Assembly: GCA_016124795.1 (NCBI GenBank)
Contig: WGNB01000001.1
Location: 62,001 to 126,000, forward strand
Length of the DNA stretch: 64,000 nt
Origin: Rhodopseudomonas sp.
GTDB taxonomy: Bacteria; Pseudomonadota; Alphaproteobacteria; Rhizobiales; Xanthobacteraceae
Direction of reading: 5' to 3'
Positions 8,542-26,603 of this stretch are shown here, in pieces. A model generated the notes under the pieces. It worked only from the letters and a program-made list of their open reading frames with translations, did not search any database and was not told the origin of the DNA. Each line of letters begins with the position of its first letter. Position 1 is the stretch's first letter. Both the position numbers and the translations under genes were made by a program.

Positions 8542-9621
8542 TCAGGATTGTTTGACCGGCAGGTCGTCGAAGCCCCGGGCGCGGTAGACCCATAGCGAGA
8601 CGATCCAACTGACGACGAAGATGCCAGCGACCGCGAAGCCGACATTGGCGAAATTCTCGTTCAGGCCGCCGACGGTGGTCCAGAATGCGCCTTGCAGACC
8701 GAGTTTGTCGCCGATCAATCCGAGTGCTTCGATCCCGCCGATGAAGACCGCGACCACGACCGAGGCGGCGGTGATCGTCAGGTTGTACCAGAGCTTGCGC
8801 ATGGGGTTGACCAGCGCCCAGCCATAAGCGCCGGTCATCAGCGCGCTGTCGGCGGTGTCCAGCAGTGACATGCCGGCAGTAAACAAGGCCGGGAACACCA
8901 GAATACTCCAGATCGACATGCCTTGCGCGGCTTGGGTGGCCGAAATTCCGAGCAGGCCGATTTCTGTCGCGGTGTCGAAGCCCAGCCCAAACAGAAAACC
9001 GATCGGATACATATGCCAGGAACGTGTGACGACGTTGAAAACCGGTCGGAACACGCGGGCAATAAGGCCCCGACCAGCCAGCAAGGCGTCGAGATCCTCG
9101 TCGACGATTTTTTCGCCGCGGCGTGCGCGCAAGAACGCGAGCCAGATGCCCTTGAGAATGATGAAGTTGGCGAGGCCGATCGCCAGTAAAAAGAACGCCG
9201 ATACGCCGGTACCAATTGTGCCGCCGATGGTATGGAAGGCATCGAATTCATCCTGCATGGCGGCCGCCGTCGCGGCGATGGCGAGTGAGGCCAGGATGAC
9301 GATGGTGGAATGGCCGAGGGAAAAGAAGAAGCCGGTGGCGTAGGGCGCCTTGCCGTCCTGGATCAGCTTTCGGACGACATTGTCGATGGCGGCAATGTGA
9401 TCGGCGTCAAAAGCGTGGCGCAGGCCAAACATATAGGCGAGGAATGCCGTGCCGAGCAGAATCGGCCGGTCGGCAAAGGCCGTCAGCGCCCAGGTCCAGG
9501 CCGCGACATTGGCCGCAACCAATGCGGCAAAGGTCATGGCGGTCTTGGTCTTGATCCGCGCCGGCCGGTCGTCGAAAGGATTGATCATCGTTGGTCCATT
9601 CGTATTCGTACTCCGAACCAT
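8542..9621 (-). CDS. High-affinity nickel/cobalt permease (NiCoT family)
   Basis: A HoxN/NixA-type secondary transporter of 359 residues with about eight membrane segments. The diagnostic helix II motif RHAFDADHIAAIDN (HxxxDH) is present, as is LGHSTIV in the next helix region. It supplies Ni(II) to the hydrogenase assembly pathway. It is the last gene of the hyp operon, 17 nt after hypE, which supports nickel over cobalt. The ATG at 9621 was kept; an ATG at 9588 (MINPFDD) would give 348 residues and is equally plausible. Nickel specificity is inferred from context. Confidence 0.9.
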   Translation of the reverse strand: MVRSTNTNGPTMINPFDDRPARIKTKTAMTFAALVAANVAAWTWALTAFADRPILLGTAFLAYMFGLRHAFDADHIAAIDNVVRKLIQDGKAPYATGFFFSLGHSTIVILASLAIAATAAAMQDEFDAFHTIGGTIGTGVSAFFLLAIGLANFIILKGIWLAFLRARRGEKIVDEDLDALLAGRGLIARVFRPVFNVVTRSWHMYPIGFLFGLGFDTATEIGLLGISATQAAQGMSIWSILVFPALFTAGMSLLDTADSALMTGAYGWALVNPMRKLWYNLTITAASVVVAVFIGGIEALGLIGDKLGLQGAFWTTVGGLNENFANVGFAVAGIFVVSWIVSLWVYRARGFDDLPVKQS

Positions 9622-9638
9622 GCCGGGCTAACCGCCGT

Positions 9639-10658
9639 TTAGCAAATGCGCGGCAACGGGTCGTCTTCGAGTTCTTCCAATAATCGCTCGCCGCCGATTT
9701 CGGTCTGCAACACCACTTGGCCGCCGGGTCCGTCGAGCCGTCCGATGATCGCCGCGTCTTCGCCGCTGGGCAAAGCGCGCCAATGCGCCAGCGCGTGTCG
9801 CGCGTCGTCGGGCGATAGCACCGCGACGACGCGGCCTTCGCAGGCAAGATAGAGTGGATCGTAGCCGAGAATGTCGCAGACGCCGCGCACCGGTGGGTGG
9901 ACCGGAATGGCGGTCTCATCAAGCCGTACGGTCAAGGCCGTTGTTTGCGCGATCTCGTGCATGACGGTGACGAGGCCGCCCCGGGTCGGATCGCGCATGA
10001 AGCGCAGGCCAGGCAGGTTCAGCAAAGCCTGTGTTAACGGCAGCACGCTGCCGGCATCGGATTGTAGATCGCCTTTCAGGCCGAAGTCTTCGCGCGCCAG
10101 CAGGACCGCGGTGCCGTGATCGCCGACCGCGCCGCTGACCAGCACCATGTCGCCATTCTCGATGCGGCTGAGCCCGAGCCGGAGGCCGGGCCTCCGGATG
10201 CCGACGCCGGTGGTCGCCAGATAGAGGCCGCCGCCCTCGCCACGGCGCAGGACCTTGGTGTCGCCGGCGGCAACCTTCACGCCGCAGTCTCTGGCGGCGC
10301 GCGCCATGCTGGCGATCAGGCGGTCGAGCACGTCGAATTCGAGGCCTTCCTCGATGAAGGCGTTCAGCGTGAGGTAGAGCGGTGTCGCGCCCGAGACGGC
10401 GAGATCGTTGACCGTGCCATGAACCGCCAGCGAGCCGATGTCGCCGCCGGGAAATTCGAGAGGCTGCACGGTGAAGCCGTCGGTCGTGACCATAACGTCG
10501 CCGGGCGGCATCGGCAGGATGCTGGCGTCGGCTCGAATGTCGAGCTGCGGATTGCCGAGATGACGGGTGAAAATCCGTGCGATCAATTCGCGCATGTAAC
10601 GACCGCCGTTGCCATAGGCGAGCGTCACATAGGCGTCTTCGATTTTGCCTTGGTTCAT
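9639..10658 (-). CDS. hypE: HypE, carbamoyl dehydratase of hydrogenase maturation
   Basis: HypE (339 residues) takes the carbamoyl group from HypF onto its C-terminal Cys and dehydrates it with ATP to a thiocyanate, the source of CN ligands of the NiFe site. The defining C-terminal PRIC ends the protein here, and the AIR-synthase-like ATP-binding fold is recognisable (GNGG near the start, GDTKV, DPTRGG). I chose ATG 10658, which overlaps the hypF stop as ATGA, indicating translational coupling; the longer frame to 10712 lies inside hypF. Confidence 0.97.
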   Translation of the reverse strand: MNQGKIEDAYVTLAYGNGGRYMRELIARIFTRHLGNPQLDIRADASILPMPPGDVMVTTDGFTVQPLEFPGGDIGSLAVHGTVNDLAVSGATPLYLTLNAFIEEGLEFDVLDRLIASMARAARDCGVKVAAGDTKVLRRGEGGGLYLATTGVGIRRPGLRLGLSRIENGDMVLVSGAVGDHGTAVLLAREDFGLKGDLQSDAGSVLPLTQALLNLPGLRFMRDPTRGGLVTVMHEIAQTTALTVRLDETAIPVHPPVRGVCDILGYDPLYLACEGRVVAVLSPDDARHALAHWRALPSGEDAAIIGRLDGPGGQVVLQTEIGGERLLEELEDDPLPRIC

Positions 10659-12943
10659 AGACCCGCGCTCGCTTCGACAAGTTGTCCGAAGCTCAGACCG
10701 GCGTCGTTGCACGGCAGCCGCTCGGATAGATGAAGGGTGAAGCCGTCGCGCTCTGCGAGCGCCAAGACGCGCTCGGATAAGCGCCGGTTCTGGAATACGC
10801 CGCCGGTCAGGCCGAGGTCGGATACGCCGTGTTCAGCGCGCAGGGCGCGGGCTTGGCTAAGCAGCATTTCGGCGAGGGTTTCGTGAAACAGGCCGGCCCG
10901 TGCGGCGGTGCTTTGTGTCGTGTCCTGCAGGTCCTGCAATAGGGGGCTCCAGTCGCTTTGCCAGATGCCGTCTGGCCGGCGCGCCAGCGGCAATGCAATG
11001 GCCTTGGCGTTATCCGCAGCGATGGCTTCTAGACGGCCGGGTGCCTGGCCCTCGAAGCTTGCTTGCTCGACGACGCCGAGCAGGGCGGCCGCGCCATCGA
11101 ACAGTCGGCCGATCGATGAGGTGCGTGGGCAATTCACATTCCGGGTCCAGGCGTGCCGCAGGAGTTCGGCTTCCGGCCGATTGCTGTTCCAGTCGATGCC
11201 GGCTTCCCAACATAAGGACAAGGCGCTGCGCCATGGATCGCGGGCGGCGCGGTCGCCGCCGAGCAGGGCGAAGGGCCGGATCGTGGCGACGCGTCGCCAA
11301 TGTCCTGGCCGGCCCAGCAGGGCTTCACCGCCCCAGATGGTGCCGTCGCGGCCAAGGCCGGCGCCGTCCCAGGCAAAGACCAGTCGATCGCGATCGTGCG
11401 GACTTTCGCCGGCCAGCGCCGAGGCATGCGCCTCGTGGTGATAGATCGAGCTGACCGGCAGCCCTATTTGTCGCGCCAGATGCGTGGTGGCATAGGCTGG
11501 GTGAGCGTCGCACAGGATCGCTTCGGCGGTGACGCCATAGAGTGTTTGCAGGTCGGTAGCGACCTGCTTGAGCAAAGCCAGGCCGCGTGGCGTGCCCATG
11601 TCGCCGAGGTGTGGTGATACCACGGCACGGTGGCCCCAACCGAGCGCGATGGCGTTCTTGAGCTGACCGCCGAGAGCCAGTAGCGGCCGGGGCAAGGGAA
11701 ATGGCAAGTCGATGTCGAGCGGCGCATTGCCTCGGCCGAGCCGGAGTGGCCGCGGCTTTCCGGCCACCATCCGATAGACGGGGTCGTCGGCCGGCCGGAC
11801 AATCGTTCGGTCATGATGCAGAAAGCCATCGGCGATCGTGGCGAGTCTGGCTTCAGCGTCGCTGTTATCGGTCAGAACAGGCTCGCCGCTGATATTGCCC
11901 GAGGTGGCGACCAGCGGCCCGCCGAAATCGGTCAGCAGCAGATGGTGCAGGGGGCTGTAAGGCAGCATGACGCCGATCTCGGCGTTGCCGGGCGCAATGT
12001 TTGGCGCCAGCGGGCCGTCCGGGCACTTCGGCACCAGGACGATCGGGCGGATCGGATCGCGCAAAATGGTTTCGTGGACGTCGTCGAGCACAACGGCGCG
12101 GCGCAGCGTCGCAAGATCATCGTTTATTGGAAACATCACGGCCAGGGGCTTGTCGGGCCGCCGTTTGCGCTGGCGTAAGGTGGCGATCGCGCCGGCATCG
12201 CTGGCGTCGCAGATTAAATGATAGCCGCCGATGCCCTTGACGGCGACGATCCGGCCGGCGCGCAAGGCGGCGACGGTTGCGGCCAGCGCGTCGTCGCCAA
12301 AATTCGTCCGGTCGCCGGCGGGGCGATACGCGAGGCGTGGGCCACACACCGGACAGGCGATCGGCTCGGCATGAAAACGCCGGTCCGCCGGATCGGTGTA
12401 TTCGGCCGCGCACGATCTGCAAAGTGGGAAACCTGCCATAGACGTATTGGCGCGGTCATAAGGCAGCCGCTCGATCAGCGTGTAGCGCGGGCCGCATTGC
12501 GTGCAGTTGATGAAGGGATAGCGGTAGCGCCGGTTGTTGGGATCGCTGAGTTCGGTCAGGCAATCGTCGCAGGCGAAATAATCCGGCGGCACCTGCGCAT
12601 GAGCGGACCGCGCCGGGTCGCTGTCGCGAATTCGAAAATCCTCGGCCGGTTCCGGAACGGAGGGCGCAGCCGATATTAGTTCTGGTCGCGCCAGCGGCGG
12701 CGCTTCGGCCAGCAACGCGGCGCCAAATCGCCGTAAGGTATCGGGTGCGCCTTGCGCCGTGACCACAACCTCACCGCCGCGATTCTTTACCCACCCACGC
12801 AGGCCGTGGCGTTGGGCCAGACGATAGACGAAGGGGCGAAAGCCGACGCCTTGCACCCGGCCGCCGAGCACCCATTGTCGTGCGACCTCGTCGCTTGCCG
12901 CCATTGCGCCGTTCGCCGCGTCGGTTCGGACACTATTCAACAT
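10655..12943 (-). CDS. hypF: HypF, carbamoyltransferase of hydrogenase maturation
   Basis: HypF converts carbamoyl phosphate and ATP into carbamoyl adenylate and passes the carbamoyl group to HypE. In order: acylphosphatase domain (GRVQGVGFRPFVYRLA), two zinc fingers of CxxC-x18-CxxC type (CDDC...CTQC and CRSC...CPVC), a YrdC-like domain (KRRPDKPLAVM) and a Kae1-like domain with HHEAHA and GGVFQNR. About 762 residues from ATG 12943, close to the family norm; ATG 12904 (749 residues) is an alternative. The frame remains open to 13444 but that part is antiparallel to nothing functional and overlaps hypD. It overlaps the hypD end by 11 nt and is coupled to hypE. Confidence 0.96.
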   Translation of the reverse strand: MLNSVRTDAANGAMAASDEVARQWVLGGRVQGVGFRPFVYRLAQRHGLRGWVKNRGGEVVVTAQGAPDTLRRFGAALLAEAPPLARPELISAAPSVPEPAEDFRIRDSDPARSAHAQVPPDYFACDDCLTELSDPNNRRYRYPFINCTQCGPRYTLIERLPYDRANTSMAGFPLCRSCAAEYTDPADRRFHAEPIACPVCGPRLAYRPAGDRTNFGDDALAATVAALRAGRIVAVKGIGGYHLICDASDAGAIATLRQRKRRPDKPLAVMFPINDDLATLRRAVVLDDVHETILRDPIRPIVLVPKCPDGPLAPNIAPGNAEIGVMLPYSPLHHLLLTDFGGPLVATSGNISGEPVLTDNSDAEARLATIADGFLHHDRTIVRPADDPVYRMVAGKPRPLRLGRGNAPLDIDLPFPLPRPLLALGGQLKNAIALGWGHRAVVSPHLGDMGTPRGLALLKQVATDLQTLYGVTAEAILCDAHPAYATTHLARQIGLPVSSIYHHEAHASALAGESPHDRDRLVFAWDGAGLGRDGTIWGGEALLGRPGHWRRVATIRPFALLGGDRAARDPWRSALSLCWEAGIDWNSNRPEAELLRHAWTRNVNCPRTSSIGRLFDGAAALLGVVEQASFEGQAPGRLEAIAADNAKAIALPLARRPDGIWQSDWSPLLQDLQDTTQSTAARAGLFHETLAEMLLSQARALRAEHGVSDLGLTGGVFQNRRLSERVLALAERDGFTLHLSERLPCNDAGLSFGQLVEASAGL

Positions 12944-14069
12944 CGGCCAATTCGCGCGGCGTGCGCACACCGCTCGACCACCAGATCCGGCACGCACCTT
13001 CATCCGACACCATGCAGGGGCCGACCGGGTTACGCGGCGTGCAGGCGCGACCATAGAGCTTGCATTGATCGGGATAAATCCGGCCCAGCACGACGCGCGC
13101 GCAATCGCAGCCCGGTGGCATTTCGCCGGCGCGCTTGCGCATGTCGTCGTCATAGGACGGATAAAGCTTGCCGGCGTCGTGCGCCGCCAGCTCCGGCCGC
13201 AGGGCGTAGCCCGATGCCGGGATCGTGCCGATGCCGCGCCAGTTGGCGTCGACAATCTCCATGGTGGTTTCGATTTGTCGCCGTGCCGCCGGGTTGCCGC
13301 CGGGCCGCACCACTTCCGGGTAGCAGTTGTCGAGAAAGCGACGGCCTTCGACCAGTTGGCGGACGACAGAATAGAGCGCAGCGACCAGGCTTTCGCCGGT
13401 AAAGCCGCCGATTGCTGCCGGCAGGCCGTGTTGCTGCGGGACAAAGGCCCATTCCTCAGGGCCCATTACGGTTGCGACGTGACCCGGGCCAATCAGGGCA
13501 TCAAAGCCGGGCATGCCGGACTCGAGCAGCATGGCGACCGCCGGCCAGGTGCGCCGTGCCGCCAGCAACACCGACAGGTTGGCCGGCACGCCTTCGGCCA
13601 GCATCGCCGCCACCGGCGCCGTCGTCGTTTCGAAGCCGGCGGCGAAAAACACGACCCGGCGCTGCGGATTGTCGCGGGCAATGCGGACGGCTTCGAGCGG
13701 AGAGGCAATCGGCACAATTTCGCCGCCGGCGGCCCGGGCCTGATCGAGCGAGCGGATTTCGTTCTTGCGGACATTAACCGGCACCCGCAGCATGTCGCCG
13801 AAAGCCACCAGAATGATCTTTTCCGACAGCGCCAGCTGAATGGCCTGGTAAATGCTTTCTTCCGGGCAGATGCAGACCGGACATCCGGGGCCGGGCACCA
13901 ATTCGATGCCCGGCGGCAGCGCCTTGCGCAGTCCGGTCATGGCGATCGAGCGCTCATGACCGCCACAAACGTTCATCACTTTGAAACGGCGCGGCAGTTT
14001 CAGCGCGCGGAGGCGGTCAAGCCACTGCCGGGTGCTCGTGGCGGTGGTGGTGATGGTCGTGGTGGCCAT
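12933..14069 (-). CDS. hypD: HypD, Fe(CN)2CO scaffold assembly protein
   Basis: HypD with HypC forms the scaffold on which the Fe(CN)2CO group is made. Conserved motifs are present: CGGHE near the N-terminus, PGPGCPVC, the GFETT block, GPGHV and the C-terminal Cys-rich [4Fe-4S] region (CDCARV, QCKLYGRAC). About 378 residues from ATG 14069, which is the only reasonable start downstream of which enough N-terminus remains. The first 13 codons overlap the end of hypB in a different frame, so the HypD N-terminus is Thr-rich (MATTTITTTATST) because it reads the same CAC/CAT-rich repeat that encodes the HypB His tail. Confidence 0.95.
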   Translation of the reverse strand: MATTTITTTATSTRQWLDRLRALKLPRRFKVMNVCGGHERSIAMTGLRKALPPGIELVPGPGCPVCICPEESIYQAIQLALSEKIILVAFGDMLRVPVNVRKNEIRSLDQARAAGGEIVPIASPLEAVRIARDNPQRRVVFFAAGFETTTAPVAAMLAEGVPANLSVLLAARRTWPAVAMLLESGMPGFDALIGPGHVATVMGPEEWAFVPQQHGLPAAIGGFTGESLVAALYSVVRQLVEGRRFLDNCYPEVVRPGGNPAARRQIETTMEIVDANWRGIGTIPASGYALRPELAAHDAGKLYPSYDDDMRKRAGEMPPGCDCARVVLGRIYPDQCKLYGRACTPRNPVGPCMVSDEGACRIWWSSGVRTPRELADVE

Positions 14070-14808
14070 GATGATGGTGCTCGTGAGGCTTAACCGAGGT
14101 GTCATGCGACGAACGAACGCGGGCGATTTCGCCGCGCAGCCAACCGACCCAGGTGTCGATATCGATTGCCTTGCGCGCCGATACCGGGATTACCGGTGCC
14201 GCATTGGCAAGATGGCGGAGGGCCTGCTCGGCTCGGGCCGGTTCGAAATCGTCCATTACCGGCGCTAGGTCCATTTTGGTCAGCAGCATTGCGTCGGCGG
14301 CCCGGAACATCACGGGATATTTCGTCGGCTTGTCGTCGCCTTCGGTCACCGACAGTAACACGACATTGCGGTGCTGGCCGAGGTCGAACCCGGCCGGACA
14401 AACCAGATTGCCGACATTCTCGATGAAGACGATATCGAGTCCGGCAAGTGGAAGGTCGTGCAAAGCGTTGTGCACCATCTGTGCGTCGAGATGACAGGCG
14501 CTGCCGGTGGTGATCTGGACCGCCGGCACGCCATGGGCGCGAATGCGGCGGGCGTCGTTGTCGGTCTCGAGATCGCCTTCGATGACCGCGATGCGGAAGT
14601 CCGCCTTGAGCGCGTCGATGGTGGCTTCGAGCAGGGCGGTTTTGCCAGCACCTGGCGACGACATCAGATTGAAGGCGACAACGCCGTGACTGTCGAAATG
14701 ACCGCGGTTATGGCCCGCGACCTGATCGTTGGCGGCCAGCAGGCGACCGATCACTTCGACCGTGGCGGCGTCCTTTTCGGTTGCGGCGCAGCCGCAGGTC
14801 TCACACAT
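14017..14808 (-). CDS. hypB: HypB, nickel-inserting GTPase with C-terminal His tail
   Basis: GTPase (263 residues) that delivers Ni to the hydrogenase large subunit. The N-terminal high-affinity Ni motif CETCGC follows the start Met, and the P-loop SSPGAGKT is present, as is the conserved Cys/His metal site region (GSACHLDA). GGAGG is 7 nt upstream of ATG 14808. Odd feature: a His-rich run sits at the extreme C-terminus (about 12 His in the last 22 residues), whereas in the rhizobial HypB proteins I know it follows the N-terminal motif. It may act as a nickel store. The stop overlaps hypD by 53 nt. Confidence 0.96.
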   Translation of the reverse strand: MCETCGCAATEKDAATVEVIGRLLAANDQVAGHNRGHFDSHGVVAFNLMSSPGAGKTALLEATIDALKADFRIAVIEGDLETDNDARRIRAHGVPAVQITTGSACHLDAQMVHNALHDLPLAGLDIVFIENVGNLVCPAGFDLGQHRNVVLLSVTEGDDKPTKYPVMFRAADAMLLTKMDLAPVMDDFEPARAEQALRHLANAAPVIPVSARKAIDIDTWVGWLRGEIARVRSSHDTSVKPHEHHHHGHHDHHHHRHEHPAVA

Positions 14809-15172
14809 CGGCGTCCTCCATCGCATCGTTTGGCGTTTCAAGCTCGACCCTGAGCAGCAGCATTTCATCGCCGGCAATCAGATCGGTGCGCCAATCGCCA
14901 CAGACGCCGCAGACCAGCCGGTTGGCCGTGGCCGCCGTTTCTGCGCCACAATTGCGGCAGCGAACCCGGATCGCGGTTTCCTTAATGTCGAGTTGCGAAC
15001 CTTCGGCGACGGTGCCAGCGCAAACCAGTGGATAAGCGTCCTTGAGCAATTGAGGCTCGACGCCGGCGAGCGGTCCGATTCCGAGGCATACCCGTCGCAC
15101 CGCCGAACGGCGATCAGTAGCGACGGCCTCGACCTGGGCAATCAGTGCCTGACAGATCGAAAGCTCATGCAT
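14801..15172 (-). CDS. hypA: HypA, nickel chaperone of hydrogenase maturation
   Basis: HypA (123 residues) acts with HypB in nickel insertion. The N-terminal Met-His-Glu nickel site is at the very start and a structural zinc site of two CxxC motifs lies in the C-terminal half (CRNC and CGVC). ATG 15172 overlaps the end of hypC by 8 nt, and the hypA stop overlaps the hypB start by 8 nt, so the three genes are translationally coupled. Confidence 0.96.
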   Translation of the reverse strand: MHELSICQALIAQVEAVATDRRSAVRRVCLGIGPLAGVEPQLLKDAYPLVCAGTVAEGSQLDIKETAIRVRCRNCGAETAATANRLVCGVCGDWRTDLIAGDEMLLLRVELETPNDAMEDADV

Positions 15173-15443
15173 GGTCTTTGGCTCGCGCCGGGTCATCCGG
15201 CAGTCCGTCGATTTCGGCTTGTTCGGCGGCGAGCACTTGATCGAACAACTCCCAGGTCGAACGTGCCTCCTGCGGCGTCATTTTCTGGATAGCGTAGCCA
15301 ACGTGGACCATTACAAAGTCTCCGACCGTTGCCGGTTCGTCCTGCATCAAAAACAGGCTGACCTCGCGTTCGACGCCTTGTGCCACGCAGCGCGCCATAT
15401 GGCCGTCGACGGCGATGACCTCCATCGGAATTCCCAGACACAT
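15165..15443 (-). CDS. hypC: HypC, hydrogenase assembly chaperone
   Basis: A small chaperone (92 residues) that works with HypD and then escorts the iron centre to the large subunit precursor. It begins with the invariant MCLGIP whose Cys2 is essential, followed by the OB-like fold ending near WELFDQVL. First gene of the seven-gene hypCABDFE-nickel permease operon. A perfect FNR/FixK box is centred about 65 nt upstream, pointing to induction at low oxygen. Confidence 0.96.
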   Translation of the reverse strand: MCLGIPMEVIAVDGHMARCVAQGVEREVSLFLMQDEPATVGDFVMVHVGYAIQKMTPQEARSTWELFDQVLAAEQAEIDGLPDDPARAKDHA

Positions 15444-15763: not shown

Positions 15764-16861
15764 ATGTCCAAGAGTCGCCTCACGGAAGAGCTCGAACATC
15801 GCGGCATTTCTCGGCGCGAGTTCATTGTCTTTTGTGCCGCGATGGCGGCAGTGCTCGGGCTTCCTGAAGAGGCGACGCCGGCAATTGCGGCGGCTGTCGA
15901 AACCGAGGAAAAGCCGATCCTGATCTGGCTCGAATTTCAGGATTGCGCCGGTAACACCGAATCCTTACTGCGAGCCGGGCACCCGACGGTCGCCGACCTG
16001 ATCCTCGATTCGATTTCGCTGAGCTATCACGAAACGCTGATGGCGGCGGCCGGCAGCCAAGCCGAAGACGTTTTGGCGAAAACGGTCCGAGAGCACAAAG
16101 GAAAGTACATCGCGCTGGTCGAAGGTTCGATCCCGACCGGTGCCGACGGCGGTTATTGCACCATCGGCGGCCGGGCGGCCCTCGATATTGCCCGAGAGAT
16201 TTGTGGAAATGCCGCGGCGACGATCGCGGTCGGGACCTGTGCGGCGTTTGGCGGGATACCGGCGGCGCGGCCTAATCCGACCGGTGCCTTGTCGGTGGCT
16301 GACGCCGTGCCGGGCGTCAGGAATCTGATCAATATGTCGGCCTGTCCGGCCAACGCCGAAAATATTACAGCGCTGATTGTGTATTACATGACGTTGAAGC
16401 GCTGGCCGCCGCTCGACCAGTATCGCCGACCGATGTTTGCCTATGGCAAGACCATCCACGACAACTGCGAACGGCGCGCTCATTTTGACGCCGGCCAGTA
16501 TGTCGAGGCCTGGGGTGACGAGGCCCATCGGCAGGGGCACTGCCTTTACAAGATGGGCTGCAAAGGTCCGGCGACCTCGCAAAACTGTCCGGTGGTCCGT
16601 TGGAACGAAGGGACCAACTGGCCGATCGGCTGCGGACATCCTTGCGTCGGCTGCGCCGAACCGAATTTCTGGGACACAATGTCGCCGTTCTACGAACGGT
16701 TGCCGAATGTTGCCGGCTTTAACGTCGGTAGCTGGATCGATCCTGTCGGGCTCGGCCTGACCGGTCTGGTGGCCGCGGCGGCGGCATTGCACGGCGTCGG
16801 CGAAATCGTGCGCCACCGGGTCGGACTCGGACCTGTCAGCGAAGACGGATCGGAGACTTAA
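15764..16861 (+). CDS. hupS: [NiFe]-hydrogenase small subunit, Tat-exported
   Basis: Electron-transfer subunit (365 residues) of a periplasmic, membrane-bound uptake hydrogenase. ATG 15764 has AAGGAG 7 nt upstream. A Tat signal (SRREFIVFC) lies at about residues 22-30 and a C-terminal anchor helix at about 325-345. Distal cluster ligands (HDNC, CLYKMGC) and medial cluster ligands (QNC, GHPCVGC, with the 3Fe-4S Pro in WPI) are present. For the proximal cluster Cys61, Cys159 and Cys194 align with Cys17, Cys115 and Cys149 of standard enzymes, but the fourth position is Asn64 (DCAGNTES instead of the usual ECTGCTES). The extra Cys pair of oxygen-tolerant group 1d enzymes is absent (Gly63, Gly164). 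Additional Cys occur at 147 and in WPIGCGHPC. Confidence 0.95.
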   Translation: MSKSRLTEELEHRGISRREFIVFCAAMAAVLGLPEEATPAIAAAVETEEKPILIWLEFQDCAGNTESLLRAGHPTVADLILDSISLSYHETLMAAAGSQAEDVLAKTVREHKGKYIALVEGSIPTGADGGYCTIGGRAALDIAREICGNAAATIAVGTCAAFGGIPAARPNPTGALSVADAVPGVRNLINMSACPANAENITALIVYYMTLKRWPPLDQYRRPMFAYGKTIHDNCERRAHFDAGQYVEAWGDEAHRQGHCLYKMGCKGPATSQNCPVVRWNEGTNWPIGCGHPCVGCAEPNFWDTMSPFYERLPNVAGFNVGSWIDPVGLGLTGLVAAAAALHGVGEIVRHRVGLGPVSEDGSET

Positions 16862-16865
16862 GGCT

Positions 16866-18575
16866 ATGACGCATATTGTTGTCGATCCCGTAACCCGGAT
16901 CGAGGGTCATCTTCGTGTCGAGGCCGAAGTCGATGGTGGCGTCGTCAAGGAAGCATGGTCATCGTCGACGATGTTCCGTGGCATCGAGTTGATTCTCAAG
17001 GGCCGCGATCCGCGCGATGCCTGGGTCTTTGCCCAGCGCATCTGCGGGGTCTGCACGACGGTGCATGCGATCACCTCGATCCGAGCAGTCGAGAACGCGA
17101 TCGGCGCGGTACCGCCGCCCAATGCGCGATTGCTCCGCAATATCATCATGGCGGCGCAGACCGTCCATGACCATGTCGTGCATTTCTATCATTTGCATGC
17201 GCTCGACTGGGTCGATGTCGTCAGCGCGCTCGACGCCGATCCGGCCAAGACTTCGACGCTGGCGCAATCGATTTCGGACTGGCCGCTGTCCAGTACGTCC
17301 TATTTCGCCGGCGTGCGCGACCGGATCAAGGCCTTCATCGAGCGTGGTCAGCTTGGCATCTTCGCCAACGCTTATTGGGGTCATCCGGCCTATCGGCTGC
17401 CACCCGAGGCCAATTTGATGGCGGTGGCGCATTATCTCGAGGCGCTCGATTTCCAGCGACGCTTCATCAAGATCCATGCGCTGCTCGGCGGCAAGAATCC
17501 GCATCCGCAGAGCTTCCTGGTTGGCGGCATGGCGACACCGGTCGATCCGGATTCGCAAGCCGCGCTCAATATGGATACCATCGCCGCGCTGCATAAGGTC
17601 GTGGCCGACGGCCTCGATTTCGTCAGCCGTGTTTATATTCCCGATGTGCTGGCGATCGCCTCTTATTACAAGGACTGGACCACCATCGGAGCCGGAATTG
17701 GCAGCTACATGGCCTATGGCGACTATCCGGAATCTGATGGCGCGCATCCCGAGCTGTTTATCCCGACCGGGATTATTCATAACCGTGACTTGAGTAAGCG
17801 CGACACGGTCGATCACGGTAAGATCACCGAGCAGATCGCTCATTCCTGGTACGATTATTCGGTCGGTGACGACAAGGGTCTTAGCCCGTTCAAGGGAGAG
17901 ACCGCGCCGCATTACACCGGGCCGAAGCCGCCGTTTGAGCGGCTCGATGTCGCAAAGAAGTATAGCTGGCTCAAGTCTCCGCGCTATGACGATAAGCCGA
18001 TGGAAGTTGGACCGTTGGCGCGCACGCTCGTCGCTTACAATGCCGGTCATCCCAGCCGGACAAAGATTCTGGTCGATAAAGTTCTTGCCAGCCTCGGGGC
18101 AGGGCCGGAGGCGCTGTTCTCAACGCTTGGCCGGATCGCCGCGCGTGCCGTTGAAACGCAGGTGCTGGTTGAGAACATGGGCCGCTGGGTCGACGGCCTG
18201 GCCGACAATATGGCGCGTCGCGATTATCGTATCCAGGACAATTCGAAGTGGGATCCCAGTTCCTGGCCGAGCGATTGCTTTGGCGCTGGCTTCCACGAGG
18301 CGCCGCGCGGCGCGCTCGGGCACTGGGTGCACATCAGCAAGGGGTCGATTGTGAACTATCAATGCGTGGTGCCGAGCACATGGAATGCCGGACCGCGTGA
18401 CGCCGGCGGGCAGCCCGGCCCTTACGAAGCGTCGCTGGTTGGAACGCCGGTGGTCAAGCCCGAGCAGCCGCTGGAGATCCTGCGTACGCTGCATTCTTTC
18501 GACCCTTGCATGGCTTGTGGCGTTCATGTGGTCGATGCCACGAAACGTGAACTGGCGCGGGTTCGCGTCGCTTGA
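16866..18575 (+). CDS. hupL: [NiFe]-hydrogenase large subunit
   Basis: Catalytic subunit (569 residues) carrying the Ni-Fe site. Both Cys pairs that bind the metals are present: RICGVCTTVHA at about residues 57-67 and DPCMACGVH near the C-terminus. The 15 residues after that His (starting VVDATK) form the extension cleaved by the maturation protease after nickel insertion. The N-terminal RIEGHLR motif is also conserved. Starts 4 nt after hupS. It has no signal peptide and is exported with HupS by the Tat pathway. Overall group 1 membrane-bound uptake type; subgroup not determinable by eye. Confidence 0.96.
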   Translation: MTHIVVDPVTRIEGHLRVEAEVDGGVVKEAWSSSTMFRGIELILKGRDPRDAWVFAQRICGVCTTVHAITSIRAVENAIGAVPPPNARLLRNIIMAAQTVHDHVVHFYHLHALDWVDVVSALDADPAKTSTLAQSISDWPLSSTSYFAGVRDRIKAFIERGQLGIFANAYWGHPAYRLPPEANLMAVAHYLEALDFQRRFIKIHALLGGKNPHPQSFLVGGMATPVDPDSQAALNMDTIAALHKVVADGLDFVSRVYIPDVLAIASYYKDWTTIGAGIGSYMAYGDYPESDGAHPELFIPTGIIHNRDLSKRDTVDHGKITEQIAHSWYDYSVGDDKGLSPFKGETAPHYTGPKPPFERLDVAKKYSWLKSPRYDDKPMEVGPLARTLVAYNAGHPSRTKILVDKVLASLGAGPEALFSTLGRIAARAVETQVLVENMGRWVDGLADNMARRDYRIQDNSKWDPSSWPSDCFGAGFHEAPRGALGHWVHISKGSIVNYQCVVPSTWNAGPRDAGGQPGPYEASLVGTPVVKPEQPLEILRTLHSFDPCMACGVHVVDATKRELARVRVA

Positions 18576-18585
18576 GAGGTGCGCG

Positions 18586-19284
18586 ATGAGCACTCTGAGT
18601 CACTCCGGCGACCGCGACGGCGGCTTGGAGCGGATTTACGTTTGGGAGTTGCCGGTCCGGTTGAGCCATTGGCTGATCGCCGTGTCGATCGTCGTTCTGT
18701 CGGTGACCGGCTATTACATCGGACATCCTTTCATCAACGTTCCGGGAGCGGCGCGTGATCATTTCGTCATGGGGACCGTGCGCGCGGTTCATCTCTACGC
18801 CGCGTGGATTTTCACCGCCGCCTTGATCGTGCGGATCTACTGGTGGTTTGCCGGCAACGCCTATGCGCGATGGACCGATTTCATTCCGGTGTCGGCGCGC
18901 CGCTTCCGCAGCTTGTGGAATTCGATGCTGTTCTACTCCTTCATCCGCCGCGACCCCGACGATTATCCGGGGCATAATGCGCTGGCGGCCGGCAGCTACG
19001 CGATGATTTTCGCGGTTTACGTTCTGCTGATCGTCACAGGGCTGGTACTGCATGCCTCGGAGGTGCCCCCCGGATCGCCGTTCCACGTCTTCGGAGCGCT
19101 GGCGCCATGGTTTTTCGGGCTGCCGATGGCGCGCTTGATTCACCATGTGGCGATGTGGGTCGTGCTGATCTTTGTCGTTGTTCACCTGCATTTTGTGTTG
19201 CTGGCGTCGTTGATCGAGCGGGTCGGCACGTTCGAATCGATCTTCTCCGGTTACAAATTCTTTCCTAGGAAGAAGCCCCGGTGA
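18586..19284 (+). CDS. hupC: Hydrogenase cytochrome b subunit
   Basis: Di-heme membrane anchor (232 residues, four to five helices) passing electrons from HupS to the quinone pool. Conserved haem-ligand His residues are visible in PVRLSHWLIA, RAVHLYAAW and VVHLHFVLL, and the family phrase DPDDYPGHNALA lies between helices. ATG 18586 is preceded by GAGAGG; the longer frame lies within hupL. Its stop codon overlaps the protease start as GTGA. Confidence 0.95.
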   Translation: MSTLSHSGDRDGGLERIYVWELPVRLSHWLIAVSIVVLSVTGYYIGHPFINVPGAARDHFVMGTVRAVHLYAAWIFTAALIVRIYWWFAGNAYARWTDFIPVSARRFRSLWNSMLFYSFIRRDPDDYPGHNALAAGSYAMIFAVYVLLIVTGLVLHASEVPPGSPFHVFGALAPWFFGLPMARLIHHVAMWVVLIFVVVHLHFVLLASLIERVGTFESIFSGYKFFPRKKPR

Positions 19285-19853
19285 CAAACACAGTGACGGA
19301 CCGGGCGTCGGATAAGGAAATCGAGGTTCTGGTGCTCGGGCTCGGCAATGTTTTGCTGGGCGACGACGGTCTCGGCGCGGCGGCGGTGGCGCGGCTTGAG
19401 CGCCGTTACCACATTCCGGAGGGTGTGCATCTGGAAGACGGCGGCACGCTCGGCATGGCGCTTCTCGGCATGATCGCGGACACGCGGCATGTGATCCTGG
19501 TCGACGCCGTCCGTACCGAAAGTCCGCCCGGGACGCTGGTTCGGATCGATGGCGAGGATGTCATGGATGCGGTGCGCGACAGGCTGTCGCCGCATCAGGT
19601 CGGCGTTGCCGATTTGCTGGATTCCGCCCATTTGATTGATTCATATCCGGCCAGTGTCACATTGCTGGGCTTGGTGCCGGAGACGATCGAGTTAAGTGTG
19701 CAACGAACCGGGGCGGTCGAAACCGGACTCGATGCGCTTGTCGAGGCGGTCGTGCGAGAGGTGGAGAGCCTTGGTTATACGATGCGTCGTGAAGGCGAGG
19801 ATCGCGACCCGCCTCATGCTGTGCGCGATCTCGTGCATCATTTCGGGATGTGA
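19281..19853 (+). CDS. hupD: Hydrogenase maturation endopeptidase
   Basis: Protease (190 residues) that removes the C-terminal tail of HupL once nickel is in place. The N-terminal GLGNVLLGDDGLG motif, the Asp in LVDAV and the His in LSPHQVG correspond to the three nickel-sensing ligands. The first ligand is Asp rather than the Glu seen in HybD-type proteases, a substitution also found in other family members. GTG start, overlapping hupC by 4 nt. The last 25 residues form a hydrophilic tail beyond the usual end. Confidence 0.93.
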   Translation: MTNTVTDRASDKEIEVLVLGLGNVLLGDDGLGAAAVARLERRYHIPEGVHLEDGGTLGMALLGMIADTRHVILVDAVRTESPPGTLVRIDGEDVMDAVRDRLSPHQVGVADLLDSAHLIDSYPASVTLLGLVPETIELSVQRTGAVETGLDALVEAVVREVESLGYTMRREGEDRDPPHAVRDLVHHFGM

Positions 19854-20181
19854 CCCGGGCGTCCCGGATGTGCCGCCCGGGCTGTTGGCGTCGCGCGAGG
19901 CCCAGACCGCCGGCGCGACAATTTTTGCCGCCAATTGTGCGATTTGTCACGGCAACAGAGCCGATGGCCATGGTCAACGTCGTGCGGCAATGATGCCACC
20001 GCCGGCCAATCTGACATTGCCGCCATGGTCGGAGCCGGCGCATGCGGGCCGGATGTTCCAGACGATCCGTCATGGTGTCGCCGGGACGGCAATGCCGTCA
20101 TGGCCTATGTTGAGCGATCGGGAGATCTGGAACGTGGTGGCCTTTGTCTACGGGTTGGACGACCGACGCGTACGGCGTTGA
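19789..20181 (+). CDS. c-type cytochrome, predicted lipoprotein
   Basis: Mono-haem cytochrome c of about 130 residues. The haem motif CAICH is in the centre, and a Met ligand candidate lies in GTAMPSW. Upstream of the mature part there is a short basic and hydrophobic stretch ending in IISGC, a lipobox, so the protein is probably anchored to a membrane by lipid. The start is uncertain: GTG 19789 gives a credible lipoprotein signal (KARIATRL then hydrophobic core); ATG 19816 is also possible. Either way it overlaps the end of the protease gene in another frame. Position as last hup gene suggests it is an alternative electron acceptor for the hydrogenase (inference). Confidence 0.8.
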   Translation: MKARIATRLMLCAISCIISGCDPGVPDVPPGLLASREAQTAGATIFAANCAICHGNRADGHGQRRAAMMPPPANLTLPPWSEPAHAGRMFQTIRHGVAGTAMPSWPMLSDREIWNVVAFVYGLDDRRVRR

Positions 20182-20232
20182 CGGCCTGGAACCCAATTTG
20201 AAATATCCTGCTGGCCCTGAGCGGCTCCCCCG

Positions 20233-20251
20233 GCGACGGCTTGCCGGTCGC
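20233..20251 (+). terminator. Hairpin after the hup operon
   Basis: GCGACGGC and GCC-G-GTCGC can form an 8-bp stem with one bulge and a 2-nt loop, 52 nt after the cytochrome stop. No T-run. The remainder of the 199-nt gap up to the decarboxylase shows nothing else clear. Confidence 0.3.
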
Positions 20252-20380
20252 TGTCATCCTGCTTTCACAATGAATCCCGCTTGTAGATCGCCGATGACCT
20301 TTCCACCGCGATCGGACCGAAGCGCGGCGTTGCCGCTTCGCCGGGTCCGTTCGTTCAACCGGGGCAATCAGGATCGACCG

Positions 20381-22735
20381 ATGGAATTTTTCAAGCATTT
20401 TACCGTCTTGGTATGCGCGCCGGCTTTTAACGCGGAAGACCTCGAAGGCCTGCGGTTGGGCCAGATTACCGTCGAGATTGAAAAGCTGGGCTATCAGGTG
20501 GTGCGAGCACGGCGGGTCGAGGACGCGGAAATCGCGGTCCAGACCGATGCTGCGATCGGCTGCGTCGTTGTTGATTGGGGCAAGAAGGGTTTTGAAGGCC
20601 GGCCGACCGAATTGATAGATCTGATGCGGCGGCGCGGTCTGGACATGCCGATCGTTCTGTTGGTGAGGCGTAAGCGGCTCGAAGACATTCCGATCGAGGT
20701 GCTCGACTTCATCGACGGCTATATCTTCCTGGCCGAAGAGACGCCGGAATTTATCGCCCGAAATCTTGTGAGCCGGCTCAAGCAATATGCCGAAACCCTG
20801 AAGACGCCGTTCTTCGGCGCCTTGCTCGATTATGCCGAGCGGGGCAATCAGTTATGGACCTGCCCGGGCCATAACGGAGGGGTATTCTATAGTCGCAGCC
20901 CGGTCGGCCGCATTTTCTTCGAGCGCATGGGCGAGGAAGTCTTCCGTGACGACCTCGACAATTCGGTGCTGGAAATGGGCGATCTTCTCACCCATGAAGG
21001 GCCCGCGTTGAAGGCCGAGAAAGCGGCGGCTGAAATTTTTGGCGCGGAGAAGACCTATTTCGTGCTCAACGGAACGTCGTCTTCGAACAAGATCGTGCTG
21101 TCCGCTCTCGTCGCCGAGGGCGATCTGGTGCTGTTCGACCGCAACAATCACAAGGCCGCGCATCACGGCGCGCTTTTTACCGGCGGCGGTGTGCCGATTT
21201 TTCTTGAGACCGACCGCAACGCCCACGGTCTGATCGGTCCGATTTTTCATGAGGCCTTCGACGAGGATCGCATTCGCGATAAAATCCGCAATCATCCCCA
21301 GGTCTGCGATCCGGACGCGTGGCGCCGAGAGCGCCCGTTCCGCGTCGCGGTCATTGAGCAATGTACTTATGACGGCACGATCTACAACGCCGATATGATC
21401 GTCGAGAAGATCGGCCACTTGTGCGATTATATTTTATTCGACGAAGCCTGGGCCGGCTTCATGAAGTTTCATTCACTTTACGCCGGCCGTTTCGCCATGG
21501 GTCTGAAAAATCTCGGCCCCGAGCACCCCGGCATCATCGCGACCCAGTCGACCCACAAGCAGCTGGCGAGCTTCTCGCAGGCGTCGCAGATCCACGTCAA
21601 GGACCGCCACATTAAGGGACAACGTCGTCGTATCGAGCATCGCCGCTTCAATGAGTTTTTCATGCTGCATGCGTCGACTTCGCCGTTTTATCCGTTATTT
21701 GCGTCGCTCGACGTCTGCGCGCAGATGATGAAGGGCCGGTCCGGCGTGGTGTTGTGGGACGATACGGTTCGGCTTGGTATCGAATTACGCAAGAAGATCC
21801 GGGCGATCCGCCGTGAATTCGAAGATAAGGAGCAGGACCTGGCGCGGCGCTGGTTTTTCGATGTCTTTGTTCCGGATCGTGTGATGTCCGGAAACGGTAC
21901 CGGCGCCGTGGCCGGTGAGGTTGCCTGGGAGCAGGTGCCGACCGACGAGCTTGCCACTCACGCGCGGTATTGGGAGTTGGCGCCAGGCGCACGCTGGCAT
22001 GGATTCAGTCATGTTGCGCCCGGTTATGTCATGACCGATCCTAACAAGTTGACGATCTTGACGCCGGGCTTCGATCGCGCCACCGGCGCTTACGCGGAAA
22101 CCGGCATTCCAGCACCGGTGGTGGCGCAATATCTGCGCGAAAATCGTGTTGTCGCCGAGAAGAACGATCTCAATTCGTTGTTGTTTCTGCTGACGCCGGG
22201 CGTAGAGGCCAGCAAGGCCGGCACGTTGCTGAGCAGTCTGGTTGCTTTCAAAAAATTGTATGACGATAATGCCCGGCTCGACGACGTCATTGGCGAATTC
22301 GTAAGACGGCGCCCGGCGCGTTACGCAGGGGTGCGGTTGCGCGAGTTCTGTGGGGAAATGCACGGCTTTTTCCGCGCTTGCGCGACCAGTACGTTGCAAC
22401 GTGCGCAATTCGCGCCCGATCATATGCCGACACTAGCGATACCGACGCATGAGGCGGTGCGTCAGATGGTTCGGAACAATGTAGATTATCTCCCGATCGA
22501 TGAGATTTTCGGACGAATTGCCACCACCATGTTCGTCGTCTATCCGCCCGGGATTGCGACCATTGTGCCCGGCGAACGTCTGGACGAACGAGCCCGGCCG
22601 ATGCTGGATTATCTGGCGATGTTCGAACGCGCCGCCAATTTATTCCCGGGGTTCGAGACGGAGATTCAGGGGATCTATCGCGAAATTGCGCCCGACGGCC
22701 GAGTGCGCTTCTATACTTATGTGGTGCGAGAGTGA
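20381..22735 (+). CDS. Orn/Lys/Arg decarboxylase (fold type I, PLP)
   Basis: A 784-residue basic amino acid decarboxylase of the AdiA/LdcI/SpeC family. Domains: N-terminal response-regulator-like wing (about 1-130), PLP core (about 140-600) and C-terminal domain. The PLP Lys is Lys393 in STHKQLASFSQAS, and other active-site stretches such as TCPGHNGG, LNGTSSSNK and FDEAWAGF are intact. ATG 20381 has AGGA 7 nt upstream; the open frame upstream contains no family sequence. Which amino acid is used (Arg, Lys or Orn) cannot be read with certainty. Role: polyamine synthesis or acid resistance. It stands alone with no adjacent antiporter. Confidence 0.93.
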   Translation: MEFFKHFTVLVCAPAFNAEDLEGLRLGQITVEIEKLGYQVVRARRVEDAEIAVQTDAAIGCVVVDWGKKGFEGRPTELIDLMRRRGLDMPIVLLVRRKRLEDIPIEVLDFIDGYIFLAEETPEFIARNLVSRLKQYAETLKTPFFGALLDYAERGNQLWTCPGHNGGVFYSRSPVGRIFFERMGEEVFRDDLDNSVLEMGDLLTHEGPALKAEKAAAEIFGAEKTYFVLNGTSSSNKIVLSALVAEGDLVLFDRNNHKAAHHGALFTGGGVPIFLETDRNAHGLIGPIFHEAFDEDRIRDKIRNHPQVCDPDAWRRERPFRVAVIEQCTYDGTIYNADMIVEKIGHLCDYILFDEAWAGFMKFHSLYAGRFAMGLKNLGPEHPGIIATQSTHKQLASFSQASQIHVKDRHIKGQRRRIEHRRFNEFFMLHASTSPFYPLFASLDVCAQMMKGRSGVVLWDDTVRLGIELRKKIRAIRREFEDKEQDLARRWFFDVFVPDRVMSGNGTGAVAGEVAWEQVPTDELATHARYWELAPGARWHGFSHVAPGYVMTDPNKLTILTPGFDRATGAYAETGIPAPVVAQYLRENRVVAEKNDLNSLLFLLTPGVEASKAGTLLSSLVAFKKLYDDNARLDDVIGEFVRRRPARYAGVRLREFCGEMHGFFRACATSTLQRAQFAPDHMPTLAIPTHEAVRQMVRNNVDYLPIDEIFGRIATTMFVVYPPGIATIVPGERLDERARPMLDYLAMFERAANLFPGFETEIQGIYREIAPDGRVRFYTYVVRE

Positions 22736-24988: not shown

Positions 24989-25780
24989 TTAAATGCCCGC
25001 GAACCAGTTGAAGCCCTGCTTTGTCCAATAAGTCGGCAGGAAGGTGTTGGTGACCTCCATTGCCGTGATCCATTTGGCGTTCTTGAAGCCGAGCTTGGTC
25101 GCGGTGCGTAGCCGCAGCGGAAAGCCGAACGGATCGCGGATCGGCTCATGCGCGTATTTGGTGGCGAGGATGGTCTGCGGGTGTAACGCTGTCGCCATGT
25201 CGAGGGTTTCGGTATAGTCGTCGGCGCATTTGAACGACACATACTTGGCGCTGGTATCGGCGCCGATCCGTTTGAGGAACTGACCGAGGTTCACGCCTTC
25301 CCATTGACCGATGTAGTCCCAGCCTTCAACGCAGATGTGGCGGATGATGAGTTCCTGTTCCGGCAGCTTGTAGAGTTCTTCGGCGGTCCAGGGCTTCTTG
25401 TTTTCGATCAGGCCGGCAAGCTCCAGCTTCCACGTCGCGCCGTTTACCGGTTTGACATCCTCGATCTCATAATAGGCATTGAAGCGCGGTGGCTTGGCCA
25501 CCTGATCCTCGCGGTAGGTCGGCGCAAGATGATTGGGGCGAAATAGCATCTCCTGAACGCCATCGTTGAAAGACGATACCGCACGCAGGAAGGACTGGAT
25601 CGGGCCGCTGTCGCCGACCGAGCAGCCGGTCAACATAGTCAGCGCGCCGAGGCTGAGCGTGCCCCGCAAAATCTTGCGCCGGTTAATGTCGGCGATCAGC
25701 TTCTTGTTCTCTTCAAGAGCGCTGCGATCGACGCCATTGGTCGGGCGGAAAACGGAAGGCGAGGGCGAACGGACCGTCAT
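24989..25780 (-). CDS. Sulfite-oxidase-fold molybdopterin oxidoreductase (MsrP-like)
   Basis: A 263-residue Moco enzyme of the sulfite oxidase family. The molybdenum-binding Cys is in RHICVEGWDYIGQW, followed by the family GVNLGQFL and a conserved FPLRLR region. The N-terminus has a twin-Arg stretch (INRRKILRG) and a hydrophobic run ending in LTGC, so it may be Tat-exported and lipid-anchored. It lacks the extra C-terminal dimerisation domain of true sulfite oxidases. With the adjacent cytochrome b it resembles the MsrPQ methionine sulfoxide reductase arrangement, but the cytochrome belongs to a different family, so substrate is open. Confidence 0.88.
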   Translation of the reverse strand: MTVRSPSPSVFRPTNGVDRSALEENKKLIADINRRKILRGTLSLGALTMLTGCSVGDSGPIQSFLRAVSSFNDGVQEMLFRPNHLAPTYREDQVAKPPRFNAYYEIEDVKPVNGATWKLELAGLIENKKPWTAEELYKLPEQELIIRHICVEGWDYIGQWEGVNLGQFLKRIGADTSAKYVSFKCADDYTETLDMATALHPQTILATKYAHEPIRDPFGFPLRLRTATKLGFKNAKWITAMEVTNTFLPTYWTKQGFNWFAGI

Positions 25781-25792
25781 GGCGTCAATCCA

Positions 25793-26467
25793 TCATTCGG
25801 CGGGAGAGGGGAGCGGTTCACGATCGGTGTCCGGATCGGCGGTGACCTTGGGGCCTCCGGTGATCATCGCGCCGATGGTTTTGGGGACCAGCAGTGCCAG
25901 CGCGACATGGACAACGAGAAACAGGACGATGGCGGTCATGCCGAGGAAGTGGGCGAGACGCGCACCCTGGAAATCGTAGAACAGGTTCACGAGGGCGGAA
26001 AGCTGGACCGGTTTCCAGATCGCCCATCCGGTGATGACCTGAAGAACGATGACCAGGATGACGCCGACATAGAGGGTCTTCTGCACGGCGTTGTAATGGG
26101 TGATGTCGTCATGTGCCAGCTTGAAGGTGAGCGCGGCCTTGATATCGGCGATGACGGCGCGCGGCCAGATCGGCAACATCTTGCGCCGGAAGCGGCCGGT
26201 GTAGAAGCCATAGGCGATGTAGCACAGGCCATTGACCATCAGCACCCACATCGCGAAAAAATGCCATTGCAGGCCGTGCTGCGCGTAGAGCCCGAGCGTG
26301 ATCCAATCGGGAAAATGTAGCCAGCCGAATAGTACTTCGTCGTTATAGATTTTCCAGCCGCTGCCGATCAGCAAGATCATCGCAATCGCGTTGGTCCAGT
26401 GCATGATACGCAGCGCCGCCGGGTGCAAATGACGGCGTTGTGATTTGACCGTGAGGGTGTCCGTCAT
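25793..26467 (-). CDS. Cytochrome b561-type membrane electron carrier
   Basis: Four-helix di-haem membrane protein (224 residues) of the bacterial cytochrome b561/Ni-Fe b-type family (PF01292). Haem His candidates: RIMHWTNA, YAQHGLQWHFF, ARLAHFLGM and VVHVALALL. ATG 26467 opens the conserved part; the longer frame to 26536 adds 23 unrelated residues. It ends 12 nt before the molybdoenzyme gene and is transcribed with it, so it likely hands quinol electrons to that periplasmic enzyme. Confidence 0.88.
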   Translation of the reverse strand: MTDTLTVKSQRRHLHPAALRIMHWTNAIAMILLIGSGWKIYNDEVLFGWLHFPDWITLGLYAQHGLQWHFFAMWVLMVNGLCYIAYGFYTGRFRRKMLPIWPRAVIADIKAALTFKLAHDDITHYNAVQKTLYVGVILVIVLQVITGWAIWKPVQLSALVNLFYDFQGARLAHFLGMTAIVLFLVVHVALALLVPKTIGAMITGGPKVTADPDTDREPLPSPAE

Positions 26468-26603
26468 GATGGTCAGACTCGAATGATTTTCAATAAACGC
26501 GATTAAGCAGGAAAACGGTTTTGACGCGCAACACACGACTTCGTGTAATCGTTAGCTGTCGTATGGTGATGCTGCGCAGTGTCGTGGTCTGTAGGAGCGC
26601 CTG

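Follow-up and report, generated by a model that had tools for sequence, protein, structure and literature searches.

The hupSLC genes of the 64,000-nucleotide stretch of Rhodopseudomonas sp. DNA analysed here (the window) very probably encode a functional, membrane-anchored periplasmic [NiFe] uptake hydrogenase, most likely of group 1f, whose proximal iron-sulfur cluster would be held by three cysteines with a lineage-fixed asparagine, Asn64, at the fourth corner. Asparagine at this position (Cys20 in the numbering of mature Hyd-1/HoxK) is already published and is an established trait in a number of hydrogenase lineages, Huc among them. The original prediction had implied that the substitution was rare; since its main point is in print, the present analysis mostly corrects its novelty. 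Mohammadi 2016 (PMC5364354) described Asn or Asp at this proximal site in group 1f, Asn in group 2a, and the substitution in mesophilic Methylacidimicrobium HupS as well. Yonemoto 2014 (PMC4070099, Table 1) lists, at proximal position 2, a Cys-to-Asn change in Nostoc punctiforme and a Cys-to-Asp change in Geobacter metalloreducens.

The small-subunit gene hupS (15,764–16,861, + strand) encodes 365 amino acids without an internal stop. The protein belongs to NCBIfam family TIGR00391 (hydA), which it matched with 419.5 bits against a curated cut-off of 179.5. It carries a twin-arginine motif (R17-R18), and a C-terminal helix was predicted at residues 321–353. A fold search with the HupS structure model confirmed the [NiFe] small-subunit fold, the same as that of group 1d enzymes; the mean pLDDT of the model was 72.5, with values of about 65 for residues 61–70, 94 for residues 141–150 and below 50 for residues 278–295. 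On the same strand lie hupL (16,866–18,575), encoding the large subunit with its L1 (RICGVCTTVH) and L2 (DPCMACGVH) motifs; hupC (18,586–19,284, start approximate), encoding a Ni/Fe-hydrogenase b-type cytochrome (TIGR02125, 157.4 bits, cut-off 121.5); and hupD (19,281–19,853), encoding a hydrogenase maturation protease (TIGR00072, 128.9 bits, cut-off 47.45). An accessory block upstream, oriented divergently (8,542–15,443, − strand), comprises a NicO nickel transporter gene (8,542–9,621) and hypE, hypF, hypD, hypB, hypA and hypC, where NicO and the HypE AIRS domains were identified by Pfam and the other hyp genes by eye and through matches beside the hup genes of relatives. The HupL comparison covered 39 sequences from loci with Asn or Asp at the HupS site (N/D loci) and 11 from loci with Cys. 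Elsewhere in the window, a large open reading frame (20,144–22,735, + strand) resembles, by eye only, an Orn/Lys/Arg decarboxylase with a receiver-like N-terminus, and a gene for a molybdopterin-domain oxidoreductase adjoins one for a cytochrome b561-type protein (24,989–26,536, − strand), apparently unrelated to the hup genes.

Residues 60–67 of HupS read D-C-A-G-N-T-E-S, and bases 15,941–15,958 encode residues 60–65 (D-C-A-G-N-T), with the Asn64 codon AAC at 15,953–15,955 (+). By alignment, the proximal cluster ligands are Cys61 (15,944–15,946, +), Cys159 (16,238–16,240, +) and Cys194 (16,343–16,345, +), equivalent to Cys17, Cys115 and Cys149, respectively. The distal cluster has His232, Cys235, Cys260 and Cys266 (16,457–16,561, +), and the medial cluster region contains Cys275, Pro287, Cys294 and Cys297 (16,586–16,654, +); the assignment of these residues to the three clusters is taken by us from general knowledge of the family. 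All of these ligands, together with Pro287, were invariant in a 47-sequence alignment of the window HupS and 46 of its best 80 relatives (L054, whose match range contains a stop codon, and L055 were left out), so the earlier statement that the remaining cluster ligands are intact held. The cysteines associated with oxygen tolerance are absent, likewise as stated: Gly63 (15,950–15,952, +) and Gly164 (16,253–16,255, +) occupy the sites of the extra Cys19 and Cys120 of oxygen-tolerant group 1d enzymes.

The placement of Asn64 in the Cys20 column was borne out by HMMER alignments to solved small subunits (1h2a_S, 6g94_S, 3myr_A, 8pou_S and 6fpi_S), in which it aligned with the second cysteine of E-C-T-G/C-C, ungapped nearby. 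An alignment shift that would move the asparagine elsewhere was ruled out by these five ungapped alignments and by the invariance of Cys61, Gly63 and Glu66 across the 47 sequences. The same motif recurred in homologues: in 92 aligned small subunits, collected from at least 80 relatives found by scanning the genomes of bacteria and archaea plus reference regions from plasmid records, column 64 contained 42 Asn, 15 Asp and 35 Cys, and every aligned relative with at least 60% identity, among the matches listed, had Asn. The asparagine codon was AAC in 34 sequences and AAT in the other 4 (38 counted, the window excluded). Because the column is conserved over the 92 proteins while its synonymous codons vary, chance or a sequencing error was ruled out as the source of Asn64, which is a lineage-wide feature and not the oddity of one gene. 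Five homologues (L008, L013, L015, L024 and L060) carry a second cysteine at position 62, adjoining the asparagine (C-C-G-N-T).

Before the phylogenetic analysis, 18 of 22 Helicobacter sequences, L056 (cut at a contig end) and L099 (a fragment) were removed. In a first tree that included five group 2a/1h-like sequences (L058_2, L083, L088, L089 and L090), the long branches of the latter joined the subclade of the window HupS with weak support (82/81). This was judged a long-branch effect, and a 76-sequence tree without the five was therefore used, with columns 62, 64 and 290 masked and the root assumed on the Cys side. It split a side of 52 sequences (39 Asn, 12 Asp, 1 Cys) from the other 24 (23 Cys, 1 Asn) with a support of 95/99. 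Loci from Geobacter, Nitrospirota, Frankia and Chloroflexota fell on the N/D side. The window HupS belonged to a subclade of 31 sequences (100/100) with Asn throughout, which includes loci from Alphaproteobacteria, Myxococcota, Acidobacteriota and Gemmatimonadota, from soil and sediment. Column 64 required a minimum of 7 changes across the tree, and Asn and Asp therefore interchange; Asn64 is thus a state fixed in its lineage and interchangeable with Asp, not a recent mutation. Each side of the tree held one exception. L087, from a Sulfobacillus acidophilus plasmid, has Asn (C-D-G-N-T) on a long branch within the Cys-type side, apparently an independent origin. L046, a Thermoanaerobacteraceae metagenome-assembled genome, has Cys64 within the N/D side yet the N/D-type neighbour Asp60, possibly a reversion or a transitional state; the site can hence be Cys against an N/D background.

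From its sequence, the HupS enzyme most likely belongs to group 1f of HydDB. It grouped with the Geobacter, Frankia and Chloroflexota (Roseiflexus kin) loci apart from Cys-type group 1 with the 95/99 support given above, and its Asn64 agrees with the Asn or Asp of that group; the label rests on bracketing by the genera named in PMC5364354, rather than on those very loci or the HydDB classifier, and on the root being placed on the Cys side. Group 1f of Geobacter, Frankia and Roseiflexus likewise has Asn or Asp at Cys20 (PMC5364354), falls on the same side of the tree and shares the hupS-hupL-hupC order. Published sources label group 1f "oxygen-protecting, unresolved role" (HydDB, PMC5037454) and place it in three Acidobacteria, including A. 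capsulatum and A. ailaaui (PMC5900883). No group 1l reference was identified among the compared loci. Three other groups were ruled out. E. coli Hyd-1 and C. necator HoxK of group 1d share 41–42% identity with HupS (by way of L084 and L082), the same fold and a cytochrome b partner, but their proximal cluster is a six-Cys [4Fe-3S] cluster and the window HupS lacks three of the six cysteines (positions 63, 64 and 164), the extra Cys19 and Cys120 being replaced by Gly63 and Gly164. Against group 2a, the window HupS is only 28% identical to L083, which is closely related to HucS, and L083 clustered with L088 and L089 (27–28%) apart from the subclade of the window. HofK of group 1h (C. necator; 5aa5) has a non-Cys residue in the same column (C-D-G-D), but this is Asp and not Asn, and L090, whose best PDB match is HofK, is only 26% identical to the window HupS.

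Two lineages with asparagine at this site have been studied for cluster type, and they differ. In Huc, the group 2a enzyme of M. smegmatis (7uur, 7utd), the asparagine of C-x-G-N-T stands in the same column, and the HucS chains 7uur_D and 7utd_B read A-C-S-G-N-T, so a solved structure with the C-x-G-N motif exists. According to PMC10017518, all three Huc clusters, the proximal one included, are [3Fe-4S], as supported by a 1.52 Å map and EPR, and [3Fe-4S] couples lie about 250 mV above [4Fe-4S] couples. Huc differs in reducing menaquinone itself and in being built around HucM, whereas in the window enzyme a twin-arginine signal and HupC are present and a C-terminal helix is predicted; Huc-like sequences are also distant from HupS (27–28% identity). 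For Nostoc punctiforme HupS, which shares the asparagine at proximal position 2 (PMC4070099, Table 1), PMC6616624 gives a proximal [4Fe-4S] cluster bound by 3 Cys and 1 Asn, and PMC4463661 gives two [4Fe-4S] and one [3Fe-4S] for the isolated protein by EPR. The Nostoc protein is further described as having Gln for the distal His, whereas the window HupS retains His232. No spectroscopy or structure of this enzyme or of a group 1f member was found in a literature search that covered few subscription journals, nor did that search find a well-characterised close homologue combining CxxN with an ordinary four-Cys cluster.

By analogy with these precedents, the proximal cluster of HupS in air would more likely be [3Fe-4S] than a [4Fe-4S] capped by Asn or water. 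Asparagine is neutral and a poor iron ligand, which speaks against ligation by Asn64. A stable [4Fe-4S] of shifted potential, with the Asn64 side chain or a bound water on the fourth iron in the manner of the group 1h Asp, is nevertheless a serious possibility, if the less probable one. The interchange of Asp and Asn on the tree favours it, Asp being the proximal ligand of group 1h (PMC5364354, PMC7174314), as the original prediction had also stated, and so does the 3Cys+1Asn [4Fe-4S] given for Nostoc HupS in PMC6616624, with the EPR counts of PMC4463661. However, the Nostoc data come from an isolated small subunit, and Huc, with the same C-S-G-N motif, has the proximal [3Fe-4S] seen in the map and by EPR (PMC10017518).

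The original prediction also considered that the asparagine might alter the cluster or that Cys147 might be recruited to it. The first part is plausible, because the proximal cluster of HucS, whose motif is likewise C-x-G-N, is [3Fe-4S]; the second was not supported. That another cysteine (Cys147, Cys132 or, in some members, Cys62) stands in for Cys20 and yields an ordinary four-thiolate [4Fe-4S] is very improbable, even though two of these cysteines are commoner on the N/D side. In the column counts, made over 51 N/D and 23 Cys sequences with L046 and L087 excluded, Cys147 was present in 43/51 N/D against 2/23 Cys sequences, and Cys132 in 45/51 against 10/23. Yet 8 of the 51 N/D sequences, four of which have Asn (L030, L036, L044 and L049), carry Ala, Val or Gly in place of Cys147. 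In the structure model Cys147 lies in helix 139–148, ahead of strand 152–156 that leads to Cys159, and this order probably places it at the far edge of the sheet, an argument from topology with no distance taken. Cys132 is missing from 6 of the 51, one of them an Asn sequence (L035, Gly), and also occurs in group 1d references, where we take it not to be a cluster ligand. Cys62 was found in 5 of the 92 aligned proteins and not in the window HupS. The surroundings of the site differ too: position 60, adjoining Cys61, is Asp in 45 of the 51 N/D sequences (Ser in 5, Ala in 1) and Glu in all 23 Cys sequences, and position 57 is Glu in 49/51 N/D sequences versus His in 17/23 Cys sequences. These pocket residues covary with residue 64 mostly along one branch and are therefore not independent evidence.

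It is extremely unlikely that Asn64 marks a non-functional or decaying hydrogenase. The gene is indeed patchy: a close HupS relative occurred in 2 of 36 same-genus genomes and, at E ≤ 1e-110, in 1 of 398 genomes of the phylum sample, its own genome being counted in both. Such a distribution suggests horizontal transfer or repeated loss. Against decay, the reading frames are open, the NiFe motifs L1 and L2 are kept, the accessory genes lie alongside, and Asn64 is retained across several phyla despite synonymous codon changes. An equivalent substitution also leaves the A. macleodii enzyme active, the C81D/N mutants of that hydrogenase being functional and C81N active according to PMC4070099.

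Two further features set the subclade of the window apart. An extra cysteine, Cys290 (16,631–16,633, +; N-W-P-I-G-C-G-H-P-C), lying three positions C-terminal to Pro287 and four N-terminal to the medial ligand Cys294, was present in 31/31 sequences of the subclade and in 0/45 other sequences of the tree, equivalent to one change. After hupD, an open reading frame (19,696–20,181, +; start uncertain) encodes a c-type cytochrome with a single C-A-I-C-H site, and the cytochrome c gene also follows hupD in the gene orders of relatives. At tree loci with more than 2,200 bases past hupL, a match to this cytochrome (tblastn, E ≤ 1e-5, anywhere in the locus) was obtained for 20 of 25 Cys290 loci versus none of 24 others (8 with Asp, 8 with Cys and 8 with Asn but no Cys290), a criterion that would overlook a diverged cytochrome. 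Of the 25 Cys290 loci, L019, L025, L026, L027 and L029 gave no match, and three further Cys290 loci with shorter flanks matched as well. Compared with the group 1f loci of Geobacter, Frankia and Chloroflexota examined, Cys290 and the cytochrome c gene occur only in the subclade of the window, the latter in most of its members. Neither an extra medial cysteine nor a cytochrome c with group 1f was found reported in the literature search, which covered few subscription journals; the two are thus subclade features for which no report was found there.

Cys290 could in principle act as a fourth medial thiolate, giving a medial [4Fe-4S] beside a proximal [3Fe-4S] and so inverting the order of cluster types along the relay. 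Its confinement to the subclade and its closeness to Pro287 and Cys294 would fit such a role, which we nonetheless consider quite unlikely. The residue at the empty corner of medial [3Fe-4S] clusters, Pro287, does not vary (47/47), an argument that the medial cluster of HupS may be [3Fe-4S] as well; the structure model is unreliable around Cys290, where pLDDT is below 50; and sequences with Asn64 but without Cys290 occur. Since Cys290 arose only once, its role has no independent support from the tree.

The host genome (5.14 Mb, 95% complete) contained a single small-subunit match and four COX1 matches above the cut-off. No RuBisCO match was found in it, and its two nifH matches were weak and both below the cut-off; at 95% completeness these absences are not proof. 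Nitrogenase-linked H2 recycling and Calvin-cycle autotrophy were accordingly set aside as likely roles, and the hydrogenase likely lets an aerobic heterotroph gain extra energy from H2.

In the proposed mechanism of this enzyme, three cysteines would hold the proximal cluster with Asn64 at the fourth corner. The Huc precedent suggests that the fourth iron is likely absent or readily lost in air, leaving [3Fe-4S], and the Nostoc HupS precedent makes an Asn-capped [4Fe-4S] the possible alternative. Either form probably shifts the potential in a way that favours H2 oxidation tied to aerobic respiration. A raised proximal potential would be expected to make H2 uptake preferred to H2 production, and by itself it would not confer the protection of group 1d, which depends on the six-Cys cluster. 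Electrons would then travel via the medial and distal clusters to the cytochrome b HupC and on to haem-copper oxidases, with the adjacent cytochrome c perhaps serving as an additional acceptor.

A more far-reaching reading is that the subclade of the window represents a hydrogenase type of its own whose relay has been rewired in three places: a proximal cluster at an Asn site, either [3Fe-4S] or a labile [4Fe-4S]; a medial cluster that Cys290 modifies; and a cytochrome c that serves as the dedicated acceptor. In combination they would raise the relay potential so that low or atmospheric H2 could be oxidised in air, independently of the routes taken by groups 1d, 1h and 2a. We regard this as a speculative and rather doubtful proposal. 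The subclade, which spans four phyla and carries Asn64 throughout together with an extra medial cysteine, offers a natural test of how relay potential bears on H2 affinity and oxygen behaviour, and one Asn-bearing lineage, Huc, oxidises atmospheric H2.
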